Assembly: GCA_020628865.1 (NCBI GenBank)
Contig: JAHDEJ010000022.1
Coordinates: 48,710 to 92,525 of the forward strand
Source: Acidimicrobiales bacterium
GTDB taxonomy: Bacteria > Actinomycetota > Acidimicrobiia > Acidimicrobiales > SHLQ01
Reading direction: 5' to 3'
Length of the DNA: 43,816 nucleotides
A model generated the notes under the pieces. The model worked only from the letters and a program-made list of their open reading frames with translations, ran no database searches and had not been told where the DNA came from. The position numbers and the translations under genes were made by a program. Each line of letters starts with the position of its first letter. The stretch's first letter is position 1. Positions 26,131 through 33,446 of this stretch are shown in pieces.

Positions 26131-26364
26131 ATGCCGATCGAGTCATCGGGCCACAGCGCGGGGAACCCCCGCCTGTATGAGCTCATTGCCGATTCACCAA
26201 AAGAGGGCGACAGCCCGACGGTGTGGGCCTGGCCGCAGTTCGTCGACTTCTTGAAGGTTGCCGGTCAGCCCGTGCAGGGGCCGTGGCCGCCGCATCAGGA
26301 GAAGCGTCCGGACCCGGATCCGGATGGGATGCCCCGGGCCGTGCCCGACCCCGAGGGCCAGTAG
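26131..26364 (+). CDS. Small hypothetical protein upstream of coxM
   Basis: A 77-residue soluble, Pro/Asp-rich protein (NPRLYELIADSPKEGDS, VWAWPQFVDFLKVAG, then a DPDPDGMPRAVPDPEGQ tail). AGGGGGA lies upstream of the ATG. It is 60 bp ahead of coxM in the same direction and may be the first gene of the CO dehydrogenase operon. It is not recognised; the tryptophan-containing core suggests a real fold rather than noise. Confidence 0.5.
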   Translation: MPIESSGHSAGNPRLYELIADSPKEGDSPTVWAWPQFVDFLKVAGQPVQGPWPPHQEKRPDPDPDGMPRAVPDPEGQ

Positions 26365-26424: not shown

Positions 26425-27297
26425 ATGTATCCATCCCGCTTTCAGTACGAAGCGCCAACGACTCTCGCTGAGGCGATCGCCATCCTTGCGGCGAACGACG
26501 ATGCGAAGGTGTTGGCCGGCGGCCAGAGCCTCATTCCGATGATGAAGCTTCGGTTCGCCAGCCCGGCCACGTTGGTCGACATCAACAACATCCCGGGTCT
26601 CGACTTTCACGGGGCCGACGCCGACGGCACCTACCGCATCGGCGCCTTGTGCCGGCATGCGCACCTGGAGAAGTCGACGACGTTGGCTGAGCATCAGCCG
26701 CTGCTCGCTTCGTGTGCGCCGCTGGTGGCGGATCCGATCGTGCGGACACGGGGCACGTTCGTCGGGTCGGTGTGTCACGCCGACCCGCAGGGCGATTGGG
26801 CGTCGTGCATGGTGGCGCTCGATGGTTCGATCACGGCGGTGGGGCCGAACGGCAAGCGTTCGATTCCGGTGAAGGAATTCGTGGCCGGGCCGTTCACGAC
26901 GGTGCTGGCGAAGGACGAGATTGCGATCGAGGGGGTGATCGCTCCGGCGAAGGGAACCCGGGCCGGCGGTTACCTGAAGCTCGAACGGCGGGTGGGCGAC
27001 TTCGCCACCGCCGGTGTGGCGATTGCCCTGGACATGTCGGGCGGTGTGGTCACGAACGCCGGCATCGGCCTGACGGGCGTGGGTGCGCAAACGGTCGACG
27101 CGGCGGACGCGGCAGCGGCGCTGATCGGCTCGAGCCTGGACCCGGATGCGATCGAGCAGGCGGCGACTCTGGCGGCTGAGGTGTCGAAGCCCCGGTCGGA
27201 TCATCGGGGAAGCGCGAGCTACAAGCGGCACATCGTGTCCACGTTCGTGACCCGAATTCTTGGCAACGTCCAACGAGCAGAAATGCAGGTGGCCTGA
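26425..27297 (+). CDS. coxM: CO dehydrogenase medium subunit (FAD)
   Basis: A 290-residue flavoprotein that passes electrons from the CoxS iron-sulfur clusters to the quinone side. FAD-binding segments are AGGQSLIPMMKLRFASP (about 32-48) and TRGTFVGSVCHADPQGDW (about 108-125). The C-terminal half has the CO_deh_flav_C fold. AGGAA lies upstream of the ATG. Gene order coxM-coxS-coxL is the usual order of form I clusters. The stop is 1 bp from the coxS start, so the two are coupled. Confidence 0.93.
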   Translation: MYPSRFQYEAPTTLAEAIAILAANDDAKVLAGGQSLIPMMKLRFASPATLVDINNIPGLDFHGADADGTYRIGALCRHAHLEKSTTLAEHQPLLASCAPLVADPIVRTRGTFVGSVCHADPQGDWASCMVALDGSITAVGPNGKRSIPVKEFVAGPFTTVLAKDEIAIEGVIAPAKGTRAGGYLKLERRVGDFATAGVAIALDMSGGVVTNAGIGLTGVGAQTVDAADAAAALIGSSLDPDAIEQAATLAAEVSKPRSDHRGSASYKRHIVSTFVTRILGNVQRAEMQVA

Positions 27298-27298
27298 C

Positions 27299-27823
27299 AT
27301 GACGAGCCTCTTCGAAGAAGTCCCGGTCTCGATCGATGGAGACATCCCGACGACGCGGGTGGAGGTGAAGGTCAACGGTGAACGTCGGGCGGCCGAGATC
27401 GAGCCTCGACTGCTGTTGGCGCACCTGTTGCGCAACGGCTTCAAGCTGACGGGTACACACACCGGTTGCGACACGACGAACTGCGGGGCCTGCACAGTGC
27501 TGTTGGACGGCGAGCCGGTGAAGAGCTGCACGGTGTTCGCGGTACAGGCCAACGGCCACGAGGTCACCACCGTGGAGGGGCTGGCCAGCTCGGAGCAGTT
27601 GCATCCGGTGCAGGAGGGCTTCAAGGACGAGCACGGCCTGCAGTGCGGGTTCTGCACGCCGGGCATGATGCTCAGCGCGGTGGCGCTGCTGAACGAGAAC
27701 GACAATCCGACCGAGGACGAAGTGCGCTGGGCGCTGTCGGGGAACCTGTGCCGCTGCACGGGGTATCAGAACATCGTGAAGGCCGTCATTTGGGCCGGCG
27801 CCAAGATGCGGGGAGAAGCCTGA
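27299..27823 (+). CDS. coxS: CO dehydrogenase small subunit (2Fe-2S)
   Basis: A 174-residue protein with two [2Fe-2S] domains. The N-terminal plant-ferredoxin-type cluster uses CDTTNCGACTVLLDG plus a following Cys (SCTVFAV). The C-terminal helical domain has CGFCTPGMM and CRCTGYQNI. An extra N-terminal segment of about 20 residues precedes the usual start of the family; the position one base after the coxM stop supports it. It carries electrons from the molybdenum site in CoxL to FAD in CoxM. Confidence 0.94.
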   Translation: MTSLFEEVPVSIDGDIPTTRVEVKVNGERRAAEIEPRLLLAHLLRNGFKLTGTHTGCDTTNCGACTVLLDGEPVKSCTVFAVQANGHEVTTVEGLASSEQLHPVQEGFKDEHGLQCGFCTPGMMLSAVALLNENDNPTEDEVRWALSGNLCRCTGYQNIVKAVIWAGAKMRGEA

Positions 27824-27824
27824 T

Positions 27825-30209
27825 ATGGCACTTGATGAAGTGAAGATCGGTGGCCTGGGGGCCAGCCGTCGCCGGGTCGAGGACAACCGGTTCATTCGGG
27901 GCAAGGGCAACTACGTCGACGACGTGGTGCTGCCCGGCATGCTCTACATGGAGATCCTGCGCAGCCCGTTGGCGCACGCGAAGATCAACTCGATCGATAC
28001 GAGCGCGGCGTATGCCATTCCGGGTGTTCGCATGGTGATGACGGGCGAGATGATGGCGGCCCGCAACCTGGCGTGGATGCCGACGCTGTCGTACGACACG
28101 CAGGCCGTGTTGGCGACGGACAAGGTCCGTTTCCAGGGGCAGGAAGTGTGCGCGGTCATTGCGGACGATCCGTACATCGCTCGTGATGGTGTCGAAGCGA
28201 TCATCGTGGACTACGAGCCGCTGCCGCCGATCGTCAACCCGGAGCAGGCGATGGCGGCGGATGCGCCGTTGATCCGCAACGACAAGGTCGGCCAGGACAA
28301 CAACGTGATCTTCGATTGGGAGGTCGGCGATCGGGAGGGCACGGATCGGGCGTTCGCCGAGGCGGACAAGGTCTCCGAGATCTCGATGCACTACCCGCGG
28401 TCGCATCCCTCCCCCATCGAGGCGTGCGGTTCGATCGCCGATTACGACCGGTCCACGTCGAAGCTGACCGTGTACATGACGTCGCAGGCGCCGCACATCG
28501 TGCGGGCGGCGGTGTCGCTGGTGGCGGAGATTCCGGAGCACATGATTCGGATCATCGCTCCGGATCTCGGTGGCGGGTTCGGCAACAAGGTGCCGGTGTA
28601 TCCGGGTTACGTGATTTCGATTCTGGCGTCGATCCTGCTGGAGAAGCCGGTCAAGTGGATCGAGGACAAGACCGGCAACCTGATTTCCACCGGCTTCGGG
28701 CGTGACGTCTACCTGAAGGGTGAGATGGCGTTGCGCAACGACGGCAAGATCCTGGGTGTGCGCATGCACACCGATTCGGATCATGGCGCGTTCTTCAGCG
28801 ATGCGCAGCCGTCGAAGTTCAAGATCGGCCTGATGCATTCGACGTTCGCCTGTTACGACGTGCCGTCGGCGCATCTGACGGCTCGGGGCGTGTACACGAA
28901 CAAGGCGCCGGGTGGTGTGGCGTATCGCTGTTCGTTCCGGGTGACGGAGGCCATGTACTTCCAGGAGCGCATGGTGCAGGCTGCGGCCGACGATCTGGGG
29001 ATGGATCAGGCGGAGTTCCGCCGGGTGAACCTGGTGAAGGACGACGACTTCCCGAAGCGCACGCCGTTCGGGTTCCTGACGGATTCGGGCCAGTACGAGA
29101 AGTGTTTGCAGATCGGCCTCGATGCCATCGGCTACGACGACTTCAAGAAGGAGCAGGAGGAGGCCCGCAAGCGGGGCCGCCTGCTGGGTATCGGCATCTC
29201 GACGATGACGGAGCCGTTGGGTGCCGGCAACAGTCGGGAGTACGACATCCTCGGCATCAAGATGTTCGACTCGGCCGAGCTGCGGGTCCACATGACCGGC
29301 AAGGCGATCCTCCGGACCGGAGCGAAGACGCAAGGCCAGGGCCACGAGACCACGTGGGCGCAGATCGTCGCCCACGAGCTCGGCATTCCGGCCGAGGACA
29401 TCATCGTCGAAGAGGGCGACACCGATACCGCCCCGTTCGGCATGGGCACCTACGCCTCTCGCTCCACTCCGGTGGCGGGCGCGGCGGTGAGCATGGTGAG
29501 CCGCAAGATCCGGGCGAAGGCCCGGAAGATCGCGGCGCATCTGCTCGAGGTGAGCGACGAGGACATCGAGTGGGAGCTCGGCCGGTTCTATGTGCGGGGT
29601 GCGCAGGATCGTGGGGTCACGATTCAGGAGTGCGCCATGGCGGCGTACAGCAACGTGCCCGACGGCATGGAGCCGGGCCTCGAGAACAACGCCTACTACG
29701 ACCCGCCCAACCTCACGTGGCCGTTCGCCTGCTACATCGCCACGGTCGAGGTGGACCCGGAGACGGGCGTGTGGGACGTGCTGCGCCTGGTGGCGGTTGA
29801 CGACTGCGGTGTGCGCATCAACCCGATGATCGTCGAAGGGCAGATCATGGGTGGCCTCACCGAGGCGTATGCGATGGCGAACATGCAGTTCATCACGTTC
29901 GACGAGGACGGCAACTGCGTCGGTTCGAACTACATGGACTACCTGCTGCCGACCGCCTGGGAGACGCCGGGCTTCGAGCTGCACGAAGTGGTCACCCCGT
30001 GCCCGCATCATCCGATTGGCGCCAAGGGCATCGGCGAGTGCGCCACGGTGGGCGGCCCGGCCGCCTTCGTGAACGCCGTGATGGATGCGCTGAAGCACAC
30101 GGGTGTCCGCAACATCGACATGCCGCTCCTCCCGGATCGGGTGTACGAGGCGGTCCAGACCGGCAACGACATCAGCGGCATGCCGCCGGTGAAGACGACG
30201 GACGAGTGA
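27825..30209 (+). CDS. coxL: Form I CO dehydrogenase large subunit (Mo-Cu)
   Basis: A 794-residue molybdopterin subunit of aerobic CO dehydrogenase. The form I active-site loop AYRCSFR is intact, with the copper-binding cysteine at residue 369 (codon 28929-28931); form II proteins have AYRGAGR. Molybdopterin-binding segments such as DLGGGFGNKVP, GQGHETTWAQ and GAKGIGECATVGGPAAFVNAV are present. It oxidises CO to CO2, which in actinobacteria supplies energy from trace atmospheric CO. It begins 1 bp after coxS and is followed by maturation and membrane genes. Full length and undamaged. Confidence 0.95.
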   Translation: MALDEVKIGGLGASRRRVEDNRFIRGKGNYVDDVVLPGMLYMEILRSPLAHAKINSIDTSAAYAIPGVRMVMTGEMMAARNLAWMPTLSYDTQAVLATDKVRFQGQEVCAVIADDPYIARDGVEAIIVDYEPLPPIVNPEQAMAADAPLIRNDKVGQDNNVIFDWEVGDREGTDRAFAEADKVSEISMHYPRSHPSPIEACGSIADYDRSTSKLTVYMTSQAPHIVRAAVSLVAEIPEHMIRIIAPDLGGGFGNKVPVYPGYVISILASILLEKPVKWIEDKTGNLISTGFGRDVYLKGEMALRNDGKILGVRMHTDSDHGAFFSDAQPSKFKIGLMHSTFACYDVPSAHLTARGVYTNKAPGGVAYRCSFRVTEAMYFQERMVQAAADDLGMDQAEFRRVNLVKDDDFPKRTPFGFLTDSGQYEKCLQIGLDAIGYDDFKKEQEEARKRGRLLGIGISTMTEPLGAGNSREYDILGIKMFDSAELRVHMTGKAILRTGAKTQGQGHETTWAQIVAHELGIPAEDIIVEEGDTDTAPFGMGTYASRSTPVAGAAVSMVSRKIRAKARKIAAHLLEVSDEDIEWELGRFYVRGAQDRGVTIQECAMAAYSNVPDGMEPGLENNAYYDPPNLTWPFACYIATVEVDPETGVWDVLRLVAVDDCGVRINPMIVEGQIMGGLTEAYAMANMQFITFDEDGNCVGSNYMDYLLPTAWETPGFELHEVVTPCPHHPIGAKGIGECATVGGPAAFVNAVMDALKHTGVRNIDMPLLPDRVYEAVQTGNDISGMPPVKTTDE

Positions 30210-30216
30210 GCTGACG

Positions 30217-31143
30217 ATGGATTTGAGCCGTGCCGTCGAGGGTTGGGGTGTGCTGGAGCGCGCCGTCGACCTGGCGCGGCGCGGCGAGCCGTTCGTGCTC
30301 GCCACCGTCGTGTGGCGGGAGGGTCCGAGCTCGGGTCAGCACGGCAGCCGGGCCATCTACACGGCAGCCGGCGAGATGTACGGCTGGATCGGTGGCGCCT
30401 GCGCCGAGCCGGTGTTCAAGCGTGAGGCCGTCAAGACGTTGCAGGCCGGCGTGCCACGGCTGTTGGCTCTGGGGGCGAGCGAGCGCTTCGGCGATCTGCC
30501 ACAGGGAACGATGGCGGTGGAGATGTCGTGCCAGAGCGAGGGTGCCCTGCAGATCTATTTGGAGCCGGTGATGTCGATGCCTCATCTCGTGATCGTCGGC
30601 GATTCGCCGATGGCCCAGACGCTGTCCGAGCAGGCGTCCCAGCTGGACTGGAACGTGGAGCTGGTGGGCGGGCCGGACTTTGGCGAAGGCCTGTTGTCCA
30701 GCCATTCGGTCGTGGTGATCGCCACGCAGGGCCACGGCGATGAAGACATCCTCACCGCTGCGCTGAAGGCGGCACCCGCCTATGTGGGTGTGGTGGCGTC
30801 GGCGAAGCGGGGCGAGGCGATTCGTTCGTTCCTCGCCACCCAGTCGATCGATGAAGCGCAACTCCATGCGCTGCGCATTCCGGCCGGGCTGGACCTTGGC
30901 AGCACCACGCACAAGGAGATGGCGGTCGCCATCCTGGCCGAGCTGGTGCAGCGCCGGGCGGCCGGCGAGTTCACGGGTGCCGTCGAGGTGCAGGCACCAA
31001 AGATCGAAACGGCCATCGACCCCATCTGCGGGATGACGGTGGACGCGGTCGACACGAGCCATCCGCTCGATGTCGGCGACGAGACGTACTACTTCTGCTG
31101 TCCGGGTTGCCGGGCGGCCTTCGAAAGCCAACAGGGGGCCTGA
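30217..31143 (+). CDS. XdhC/CoxF-family maturation factor fused to a YHS domain
   Basis: A 308-residue protein. The N-terminal XdhC domain (PFVLATVVWREGPSSGQHGSRAIY, GWIGGACAEP) and the Rossmann-like XdhC_C domain (HLVIVGDSPMAQTLSEQA, RIPAGLDLGSTTHKEMAVAILAEL) match factors that bind molybdenum cofactor and insert its sulfido group. The last 41 residues form a YHS domain (DPICGMTV, then YYFCCPGCRAAFE), a small metal-binding module often linked to copper. In CO dehydrogenase the active site needs both S and Cu, so the fusion may join the two steps (inference). It overlaps coxG by 1 bp (TGATG). No coxD or coxE homologs are in the window. Confidence 0.85.
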   Translation: MDLSRAVEGWGVLERAVDLARRGEPFVLATVVWREGPSSGQHGSRAIYTAAGEMYGWIGGACAEPVFKREAVKTLQAGVPRLLALGASERFGDLPQGTMAVEMSCQSEGALQIYLEPVMSMPHLVIVGDSPMAQTLSEQASQLDWNVELVGGPDFGEGLLSSHSVVVIATQGHGDEDILTAALKAAPAYVGVVASAKRGEAIRSFLATQSIDEAQLHALRIPAGLDLGSTTHKEMAVAILAELVQRRAAGEFTGAVEVQAPKIETAIDPICGMTVDAVDTSHPLDVGDETYYFCCPGCRAAFESQQGA

Positions 31144-31736
31144 TGCTCATAACTGACGAGTTCGAAGTCGACCATCCCATTTCACGGGTGTGGGAGTTCT
31201 TCGAGGACATTCCCGGAGTGGCCAAGTGCCTGCCGGGCACCGAGTTGAACGAGGAGATCGGCCCCGACCATTACGGCGGCGGCGTGGTGATCGGCCTCGG
31301 TCCGGTGAAGTTGGAGTTCGACGGGAACGCCAAGATCCTCGAGCGCAACGTGGACGATCGCACGATCAAGATCGATGCGGCCGGCGCAGAGAAGAAGGGT
31401 CGGGGTCAGGCGCAGATGATGGTCGACGCCGGCCTCGCCGAAACCGCCGGCGGCACCAAAGTGAGCGTGGCCATGGACCTCAACCTGTCGGGCGCCGCCG
31501 CCCAATACGGGCGAGGCCTGGTGAGCGACGTGACCGCCGTGCTGCTGAAGGACTTCGCCGGCAACGCCGAGGCTCGCCTCGATGCGATCGCCGAAGGCCG
31601 CAACCCGGACGACGTGCAGGCGACGAGCTCGTCGCCGAGCGGCTTCGCCATCGGCCTGTCGGCCGCCAAGTTGGCGCTGGCCCGGGTGTTCCGCCGGTTC
31701 TTCGCCCCGTACGACCCTGCGACTGTTGGGAGCTGA
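31143..31736 (+). CDS. coxG: CoxG, SRPBCC quinone-linked accessory protein
   Basis: A 197-residue SRPBCC protein starting MLITDEFEVDHPISRVWEFFEDIPGVAKCLPG, the standard CoxG opening. A conserved GLGPVKLEFDG strand and a GRGLVSDVTAVLLKDFAGN helix follow. The C-terminal 40 residues (GFAIGLSAAKLALARVFRRFF) are amphipathic and probably touch the membrane. CoxG is known to recruit CO dehydrogenase to the membrane and to supply menaquinone. The start overlaps the preceding stop; the stop is 2 bp before the first of five small membrane genes. Confidence 0.9.
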   Translation: MLITDEFEVDHPISRVWEFFEDIPGVAKCLPGTELNEEIGPDHYGGGVVIGLGPVKLEFDGNAKILERNVDDRTIKIDAAGAEKKGRGQAQMMVDAGLAETAGGTKVSVAMDLNLSGAAAQYGRGLVSDVTAVLLKDFAGNAEARLDAIAEGRNPDDVQATSSSPSGFAIGLSAAKLALARVFRRFFAPYDPATVGS

Positions 31737-31738
31737 TC

Positions 31739-31993
31739 ATGTTGTGGTGGATTGGAAACATCCTGTTGTTGGTGGCGGCTCTGGTGGCGGTTGCGCTGCT
31801 GAGCCGGCTGCTGGGTGCGGTGGAACGCATCCGCAAGGCGAGTGACGACATCCTGGCCGGCGGCGTTGCCGCCATCGGCCAGCTGGACTCGACGCCCGAC
31901 CTGTTGGCCCAAACCGATTCGACCGTTGCCGACGTGGCCGATGGCGCTGTGCGCTACGCCGGGTCGGTCGCCAAGTTGCTTCCGCCGGAATAG
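31739..31993 (+). CDS. Small single-pass membrane protein 1 of 5, cox operon
   Basis: An 84-residue protein: a short start MLWW, one membrane helix (about 4-24, LLLVAALVAVALLSRLL), then a helical tail ERIRKASDDILAGGVAAIG and LLAQTDSTVADVADG. It starts 2 bp after coxG. The tail pattern (basic residue after the helix, Ile and Leu spaced for a coiled coil, then a Thr/Asp-rich turn) recurs in the next four genes. I do not recognise it as a named family; a membrane-anchored helper of the CO dehydrogenase-CoxG complex is a reasonable guess from context. Confidence 0.72.
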   Translation: MLWWIGNILLLVAALVAVALLSRLLGAVERIRKASDDILAGGVAAIGQLDSTPDLLAQTDSTVADVADGAVRYAGSVAKLLPPE

Positions 31994-32005
31994 AGGAGAA
32001 GACAC

Positions 32006-32233
32006 ATGCCATTTGTTGCCTGGGTGACGTTGATTCTCGCCTTCCTCATCATCTTCTTCGCCGCCGTCGGCCTGTTCCGGGTGGTGCTCCACCTGAAGTC
32101 GGTCGACTCGACGCTCGAGGCGCTGACCGGAGGTGTGGGCGTGATCGCCGACAAGACCTCGACGGTGCCGTCGGTGGTCGATTCGGTGAACGCAAACCTG
32201 AAGCCCGTTCGAGACTTCGCAGAGGGGATCTGA
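32006..32233 (+). CDS. Small single-pass membrane protein 2 of 5, cox operon
   Basis: A 75-residue protein: an N-terminal helix (about 3-25, WVTLILAFLIIFFAAVGLF), then HLKSVDSTLEALTGGVGVIA and a VPSVVDSVNANLKPVRDF tail. A strong ribosome site, GAGGAG, lies 7 nt upstream. The tail shares the helix-Gly-Thr-helix layout of its neighbours and looks DUF948-like in general shape (one helix, then a heptad-patterned soluble part), but the resemblance is by eye only. It is 12 bp after gene 1 and 2 bp before gene 3. Confidence 0.72.
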   Translation: MPFVAWVTLILAFLIIFFAAVGLFRVVLHLKSVDSTLEALTGGVGVIADKTSTVPSVVDSVNANLKPVRDFAEGI

Positions 32234-32235
32234 CC

Positions 32236-32484
32236 ATGCTGCTTGCCACTGGATGGACCATCGGTTTCTGGATCGGAAGCATCGTCGTGTTGGCCGTGGT
32301 GGCCCTCGTCGTACCGATCCTCATGCTCGCCCGTTCGATCGGGAACCGGGCGTCGGACATCAATGCCTCGTTGGAGCAGTCGGTGACGAACACCGCTGCG
32401 CTGGCGGGCCTGCAAACCACGATCGACTCTGCGAGTGCGATCACGGACGGATTGGCTCGGGGTCGAGCCAAGTTGGGGGGTTGA
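32236..32484 (+). CDS. Small single-pass membrane protein 3 of 5, cox operon
   Basis: An 82-residue protein: a membrane helix at about 9-32 (FWIGSIVVLAVVALVVPILML), a basic step ARSIGNR, then ASDINASLEQSVTNTAAL and TTIDSASAITDGL. The SDIN element is closest to the SDDI of gene 1, and the NT turn to that of gene 4. It is joined to its neighbours by 2-bp gaps on both sides. Confidence 0.72.
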   Translation: MLLATGWTIGFWIGSIVVLAVVALVVPILMLARSIGNRASDINASLEQSVTNTAALAGLQTTIDSASAITDGLARGRAKLGG

Positions 32485-32486
32485 TC

Positions 32487-32774
32487 ATGCTGCTTGCACT
32501 GACGGAACGGAACGAGGAGCTGTGGTGGATTGCCATCGTCCTCGGGTTCGTGGTGATCGTTGCGGTGGTGGCCTTGTTGTCGCTGCTGGTGGTGTTCGTT
32601 CGCACGATCGAACAGCGGGTCACGACCATCAAGGCCACGCTGGAAGCGGCGGCCGCCAACACCGACGACACGAAGCTCATCGGTGAAACGGCCCTCGGAG
32701 TCGAGGGTGTGTTGAACGAAGGCCTGAACCATCACCTGTTCTTGGGCCGTGTGCTGGAGAAGGTGCGCTCATGA
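32487..32774 (+). CDS. Small single-pass membrane protein 4 of 5, cox operon
   Basis: A 95-residue protein: a short hydrophilic N terminus (MLLALTERNEELWW), a membrane helix at about 14-37, then RTIEQRVTTIKATLEAAAANTDD and a helical tail (GVEGVLNEGLNHHLFLGRVLEKVRS) with two adjacent histidines. Its stop overlaps the start of gene 5 (ATGA), so the two are translationally coupled. Orientation is probably N-out with the tail inside, by the positive-inside rule. Confidence 0.72.
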   Translation: MLLALTERNEELWWIAIVLGFVVIVAVVALLSLLVVFVRTIEQRVTTIKATLEAAAANTDDTKLIGETALGVEGVLNEGLNHHLFLGRVLEKVRS

Positions 32775-33133
32775 CCACACTCGTCACGCTTTCCGTCATC
32801 GCCATCACCCTGCTCATCGCAGGGCTGGCCTTCTTCCCCTGCGTGCTCGGCAGCCAACTCGGCCGCATTGCCACGCTGCTGGAGGAGTGCGCCGAGCTCG
32901 TGTGGAAGATCAAGGGCGACACCGAAGCCATCGCCCCCGGCCTCCAGAGCATCAACAACACCGGAGGCGTCGTCGCCGGCGCCCTCCCCCTCCTCTACGG
33001 ATTCGCCGAAGACATCGTCAAGGGCGCCACCTACGAACCAAGGCCCGACGACTACGAAGCCCCACCTGCGGTGCCTGCGATGGGCACGCGGCGTTCACGG
33101 CTCATGGAGGGTGTGGGCTACCGGCCGGAGTGA
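32771..33133 (+). CDS. Small single-pass membrane protein 5 of 5, cox operon
   Basis: A 120-residue protein, the longest of the set: a helix at about 4-27 (LVTLSVIAITLLIAGLAFFPCVLG), then RIATLLEECAELVWKIKGDTEAIAPGLQ split by the usual layout, an INNTGGVVAGALPLLYGFAEDIVKG segment and a Pro-rich charged tail. It has two cysteines (Cys24 and Cys40), one at the membrane edge. It is the last gene of the probable CO dehydrogenase operon; the following 313 bp hold no convincing gene. Confidence 0.72.
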   Translation: MTTLVTLSVIAITLLIAGLAFFPCVLGSQLGRIATLLEECAELVWKIKGDTEAIAPGLQSINNTGGVVAGALPLLYGFAEDIVKGATYEPRPDDYEAPPAVPAMGTRRSRLMEGVGYRPE

Positions 33134-33446
33134 GGCGCTGCGACCGGCGGGCGTGGGTATCGGCGCCCGAGAGCGCCATTGAGTACAGAGGGGGCGCCTG
33201 GCCTCAATAGTTCTATCGGTGTCGGGTTGGACTAGTCCCAGCTGCTGTGGGCACGCTTGTTGCGCCGGCGGTGGAACGCCAGATGGCCCGACTTCGCCCC
33301 GAAAAACGCCCGGCTCGGTGCAAGGATCGGTGTCACCGAACGAGCGTTGCGCGCCCTGCCTACGCCGGGCGTCTGATTAGCCGAACGTGTGCACGGTCGC
33401 CTCAAGGACCACGACCACGCTGGCCTTCCCCGCCCTCCAGCCGACC
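33134..33446. other. Non-coding region with a long inverted repeat
   Basis: No gene is convincing in these 313 bp. An outer inverted repeat ACGCCCGGC (33306-33314) / GCCGGGCGT (33364-33372) encloses an inner one, TCGGTG (33315-33320) / CACCGA (33334-33339). It could fold in RNA as a terminator-like or structured element, or mark the left edge of the AT-richer patch that begins at 33447. A plus-strand frame at 33247-33507 is open but has no family features and overlaps the next gene. Confidence 0.4.

Follow-up and report, generated by a model that had tools for sequence, protein, structure and literature searches.

A co-inherited set of five small single-pass membrane proteins in a form I CO dehydrogenase operon, with homologous sets beside [NiFe]-hydrogenases

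Five short genes (s1 to s5), each predicted to encode a protein with a single membrane helix, were found directly after coxG in the operon for a form I Mo-Cu CO dehydrogenase (CODH) of an Acidimicrobiales bacterium. Comparison of sequences suggests that this set is a module like HylTM, the short transmembrane proteins of certain [NiFe]-hydrogenase clusters, and that it was taken up by a distinct clade of form I Mo-CODHs. The five proteins would then be a mobile, co-inherited membrane module, not a CODH invention. The best explanation of its role, held with slightly more confidence than doubt, is that it forms a stalk in the membrane, facing the cytoplasm, by which a soluble gas dehydrogenase is docked to the quinone pool.

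The DNA analysed (hereafter the window) was a stretch of 43,816 nucleotides. The operon order in the window is coxM-coxS-coxL-xdhC/coxI-coxG, followed by s1 to s5. The features are as follows.

26131..26364, + strand: conserved soluble open reading frame (ORF) of 77 aa upstream of coxM, with homologues in other cox loci.
26425..27297, + strand: coxM, FAD subunit of Mo-CODH (Pfam FAD_binding_5, CO_deh_flav_C).
27299..27823, + strand: coxS, [2Fe-2S] subunit (Pfam Fer2_2).
27825..30209, + strand: coxL, form I Mo-CODH large subunit (TIGR02416, 1112 bits for a cut-off of 991; PDB 8uem; AYRCSFR loop).
30217..31143, + strand: XdhC/CoxI-type maturation factor with a C-terminal YHS/TRASH domain (Pfam XdhC_C, XdhC_CoxI, TRASH).
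31143..31736, + strand: coxG, SRPBCC protein (Pfam COXG, 4.6e-15), no C-terminal transmembrane anchor by C-terminal hydropathy.
31739..31993, + strand: s1, single-pass membrane protein of 84 aa, subfamily A (92% identity to sister-genome orthologues, dN/dS about 0.05).
32006..32233, + strand: s2, single-pass membrane protein of 75 aa, subfamily B (ORF; AlphaFold helix 4-52, turn, helix 59-74).
32236..32484, + strand: s3, single-pass membrane protein of 82 aa, subfamily A (ORF).
32487..32774, + strand: s4, single-pass membrane protein of 95 aa, subfamily A (AlphaFold helix 2-58, turn N58-T59, helix 63-94).
32771..33133, + strand: s5, single-pass membrane protein of 120 aa, subfamily B (ORF with a CODH-type C-terminal extension).

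CoxL was assigned to form I by the AYxCSFR loop, which reads AYRCSFR, and by a score above the cut-off of the CO_dehy_Mo_lg model. Three further observations were made on the genes around it. A YHS/TRASH metal-binding domain is fused to the C-terminus of the XdhC/CoxI-type protein (30217-31143) and may possibly help to handle copper or sulfur for the Mo-Cu site. The 77-aa ORF is Pro-rich (MPIESSGxxxGNPRLYELI...WAWPQ...LKVAGQPVQGPWPPHQE); of the 65 cox loci that extend upstream of coxM, 62 have a homologue, and it is missing from all three loci in which the module lies upstream of coxM. A coxE orthologue is located away from the cox operon in the source genome (G000:C52:52518-53630) and matches at 70% the coxE of locus L037, which sits downstream of the module.

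The five genes of 75-120 residues were located after coxG with the tight spacing that the original prediction had described (12 bp at most, or an overlap): the successive gaps from coxG to s4 are 2, 12, 2 and 2 bp, and s4 and s5 overlap by 4 bp (ATGA). Spurious ORFs are plentiful in high-GC DNA, and s1 to s5 might be chance frames or members of five unrelated families. However, orthologues in sister genomes keep the gene order at 79-92% amino-acid identity, dN/dS values against these genomes (0.045-0.20, comparable with 0.09-0.22 for coxG) indicate purifying selection, and the proteins match one another in profile-profile comparisons. Chance frames or unrelated families were refuted on these three counts and are given practically no probability; the genes are real, as had been claimed. 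In Pfam and NCBIfam, no family was matched above its curated cut-off by any of the five, and the matches below the cut-offs were composition-driven.

A single N-terminal membrane helix was predicted in each protein. In s1 to s4 it is preceded by almost no K/R and directly followed by two to three, and the tail is therefore predicted to be cytoplasmic by the positive-inside pattern; in s5, the K/R count is blurred by uncertain start codons. In the AlphaFold models of s4 (mean pLDDT 80) and s2 (83), a helix of some 50-57 residues is joined by a turn to a second helix, and the turn of s4 falls at the conserved N58-T59. These models agree with the layout originally proposed, one N-terminal membrane helix and a helix-turn-helix tail. 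Hydropathy periodicity in the tails was 98-108 degrees in nine of ten segments (p < 0.06 in each), as in amphipathic helices. Each protein is thus predicted to be one membrane helix leading into a cytoplasmic amphipathic hairpin. A Foldseek search with the s4 model gave no significant fold match in the PDB. PDB profile matches of s5 and s2 to designed antiparallel coiled coils and chemoreceptors were put down to composition and rejected as kinship.

Five membrane helices could also line a pore, and the partner enzymes always handle dissolved trace gases; the set might on that account be a channel or relay for protons, ions or gas, coupled to the dehydrogenase for energy conservation or local substrate supply. 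This is considered very unlikely: no conserved charged residues were seen inside the membrane helices in the s1 to s5 alignments, CO and H2 pass freely through membranes, and no similarity to known channels was found in the Pfam and NCBIfam scans or by Foldseek with s4.

The five proteins had been taken for diverged paralogues. Profile comparison bears this out clearly for s2 and s5 (2.6e-13; 3.8e-11 for the tail only, hhalign 97% without the membrane helix) and moderately for s3 and s4 (1.7e-10; 4.9e-5 for the tail only, hhalign 68% without the membrane helix). The link of s1 to s4 (5.5e-8 with the membrane helix) is weak by the tail alone, and s1 appears to group with s3 and s4 mainly through the membrane helix. 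The set therefore comprises two subfamilies, A (s1, s3, s4) and B (s2, s5), rather than five equivalent copies. The CODH-type proteins carry C-terminal motifs, EGLxHHLFLGRV in s4, which is invariant in 49 sequences, and PAMGxRRSRLxExVGYxPE in the extension of s5.

The GTDB genome collection was searched with CODH-type s4 as the query; 157 relatives were obtained and 80 named genome loci were kept, low-GC loci being scored by tblastn and six-frame HMM search. All five genes occur in the order s1-s2-s3-s4-s5 in 76 of the 80 loci, and CoxL is present in 71 (82-97% identity), so that a conserved set linked to CODH, as expected, was recovered. Among the nine loci without CoxL, eight have the module 3 kb or less from a contig end and the ninth is a remnant (L158). 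Cultured carriers include Amycolatopsis rubida DSM 44637 (L186), Nocardioides soli DSM 105498 (L215), Nocardioides mangrovi GBK3QG-3 (L226) and Kineosporia (L228, L229). Some lineages carry, next to the small set, extra single-pass proteins that are about 190-280 aa long and have s1-like or s5-like N-terminal parts (L044, L048, L118, L126, L129, L133, L135, L138, L140); here the module takes an extended form.

In a phylum sample of 396 genomes, s1 was detected in 38; a close CoxL or hydrogenase large subunit (HydL) is encoded as well by 35 of these, and the association is strong by Fisher's test (p 2e-21, relatedness not corrected for). An s1 gene was found within 15 kb of all eight CoxL genes with at least 85% identity to that of the window, beside none of 23 at 60-66% identity and beside 3 of 26 below 60%. 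Canonical form I CODHs are therefore mostly without the module, which agrees with the earlier statement that canonical cox clusters contain no such set. For HydL in the same sample, s1 was adjacent in 15 of 29 cases at 51% identity or more and in 1 of 40 below.

Three of the 38 genomes with s1 have no close CoxL or HydL, and several sets (L119, L134, L136, L137) are separated on their contigs from any CODH or hydrogenase genes. This might indicate an accessory role off the electron path, for instance in spacing, regulation or envelope stress, for a set carried along with trace-gas operons. Such a role is regarded as quite unlikely given the 35 genomes that do encode a close partner, the invariant motifs of the CODH-type tails and the remnant L158. 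In this close relative, the cox operon has been lost up to mid-s3 and the set has decayed to a truncated form. In L158:9823-10657 (window 32308-33144), DNA identity of 92.7% resumes at window position 32308 and the s4 and s5 ORFs are intact; a fragment of s1 is found at another place in the matching genome (L046).

A second set is present in the source genome (L008), with the order s1-s2-DUF1059-s3-s4-s5, downstream of a [NiFe]-hydrogenase operon. The closest PDB entry to the large subunit of this hydrogenase is the group 1h enzyme 5AA5. The cluster encodes NifU, two HycI-type proteases, a TPR protein, a BirA C-terminal domain and DUF1059. The published group 1m cluster has content of this type, including two single-TM proteins of 82-92 aa (Ray et al. 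2022, PMC9561532), and the hydrogenase cluster of L008 is accordingly 1m-like. The s1, s2 and DUF1059 genes of L008 fit the two small single-TM proteins and DUF1059 of group 1m (PMC9561532), whereas L008 also has s3 to s5, and the window operon has no DUF1059 and serves another enzyme.

The company of maturation genes (NifU, HycI, TPR, BirA-like and DUF1059) at hydrogenase loci, and the position of the CODH set after an XdhC-type gene and coxG, would also suit a membrane-localised assembly or maturation platform that recruits cofactor-insertion factors to the apoenzyme, outside the working electron path. However, the [NiFe] and Mo-Cu enzymes that share the module are not related in their cofactors or in their maturation factors, which makes it difficult to point to a maturation step that both would have, and no metal motif occurs in the small single-pass helices of s1 to s5. 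A maturation platform is therefore thought unlikely. What hydrogenase and CODH both need is to deliver electrons to quinone, whereas cofactor maturation is not a shared need, and docking is favoured for that reason.

Five short transmembrane proteins, HylTM1-5, are encoded between the small and large subunit genes in clusters of group 1l [NiFe]-hydrogenases (PMC9561532). The layout HydS-s3-s4-s5-s1-s2-HydL, whole or cut by contig ends, was found in seven loci (L147-L151, L153, L154), in which most members match the window families with HMM E-values of about 1e-9 to 1e-19; in L147, the last gene is B-type (s5 54 bits, s2 48 bits), not cleanly s2. These loci are called HylTM-like because their layout agrees with the published one. 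Like HylTM1-5, the window set consists of five short single-TM proteins encoded one after another in the operon of a trace-gas dehydrogenase, and it is homologous to the five TM proteins between the hydrogenase subunits of these seven loci. It differs in standing after coxG in a Mo-CODH operon, in its order s1 to s5 and in its CODH-specific C-terminal motifs. It does not lie between hylS and hylL and is a homologous module, not part of the Hyl system.

In a tree of the modules, all 27 CODH-downstream sets formed one clade (99) and the Hyl-like sets a second one (100); L139 and L142, in which the set precedes coxM, fell in a third place. As these two are apart from the CODH-downstream clade, the module met CODH at least twice. 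It had been held against the original prediction in advance if homologues occurred mostly away from cox genes; this proved half the case, homologues being split between CODH and hydrogenase loci. All of these loci encode trace-gas dehydrogenases, and the case for a general role in docking or quinone coupling is stronger for it. The topology suits the scaffold first proposed, a membrane support for a cytoplasmic enzyme; a ring specific to CODH and CoxG is too narrow, since homologous sets accompany group 1l-like and 1m-like [NiFe]-hydrogenases. A module of this kind has already been named in hydrogenase clusters. No report of it in CODH operons was found in the searchable literature, a scope outside which most subscription papers fall; its occurrence there appears new, and a prior mention is possible.

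In the docking model, each of the five proteins would cross the membrane once, N-terminus outside and C-terminus inside, with the amphipathic hairpin reaching into the cytoplasm. Three A-type and two B-type proteins would assemble into a hetero-oligomeric stalk, held together by their membrane helices and hairpins. This stalk would keep the cytoplasmic gas dehydrogenase (in the CODH version together with CoxG) at the membrane, where electrons of the docked enzyme could reach menaquinone. Catalysis does not require the module: most form I CODHs function without it, and so do the canonical group 1h hydrogenases.

CODH must contact the membrane, and CoxG was proposed as its recruiter in Oligotropha (PMC4240915); CoxG has also been described as menaquinone-binding (PMC13240472). 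The module resembles CoxG in the proposed membrane recruitment and quinone coupling of CODH (PMC4240915, PMC13240472), but CoxG has an SRPBCC fold, and the module does not replace it, the coxG gene being retained next to the set. By C-terminal hydropathy, none of 95 CoxG proteins beside a module has a C-terminal transmembrane anchor, and their C-terminus is an amphipathic helix; in operons without the module, five of ten have a strong transmembrane tail and five have none. The missing anchor in module operons agrees with docking and, with few independent lineages, is suggestive only. Anchored forms were seen solely in operons without the module (L240-L243, L250). The idea that the module is a simple substitute for the CoxG tail anchor was weakened, several CoxGs of operons without the module being unanchored as well.

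The Huc hydrogenase (group 2a) reaches menaquinone through a helical hydrophobic tube formed by HucM (PMC10017518). The likeness to the proposed stalk is one of concept, a helical scaffold between a cytoplasmic gas dehydrogenase and membrane menaquinone, and HucM differs in being one protein of 188 aa that forms a homotetramer peripheral to the membrane (PMC10017518). The s1, s2, s4 and s5 profiles matched no Huc chain, and Foldseek with s4 gave no significant match. A bolder form of the docking model is offered tentatively and with more doubt than belief: a hetero-oligomeric barrel of five single-pass helices may be a plug-in quinone adaptor, swapped in the course of evolution between soluble gas oxidases as unrelated as [NiFe]-hydrogenases and Mo-Cu CODH, that routes cytoplasmic enzymes to menaquinone without cytochrome b or a HucM-type subunit.

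A module common to H2 and CO enzymes points to one shared answer on electron transfer to quinone, a question that, outside Huc/HucM and CoxG, concerns many Mo-CODHs as well as the aerobic group 1h, 1l and 1m hydrogenases. The cultured hosts of the module make the shared quinone route testable, and in trace-gas surveys the module is a gene marker separating two kinds of form I CODH operon.
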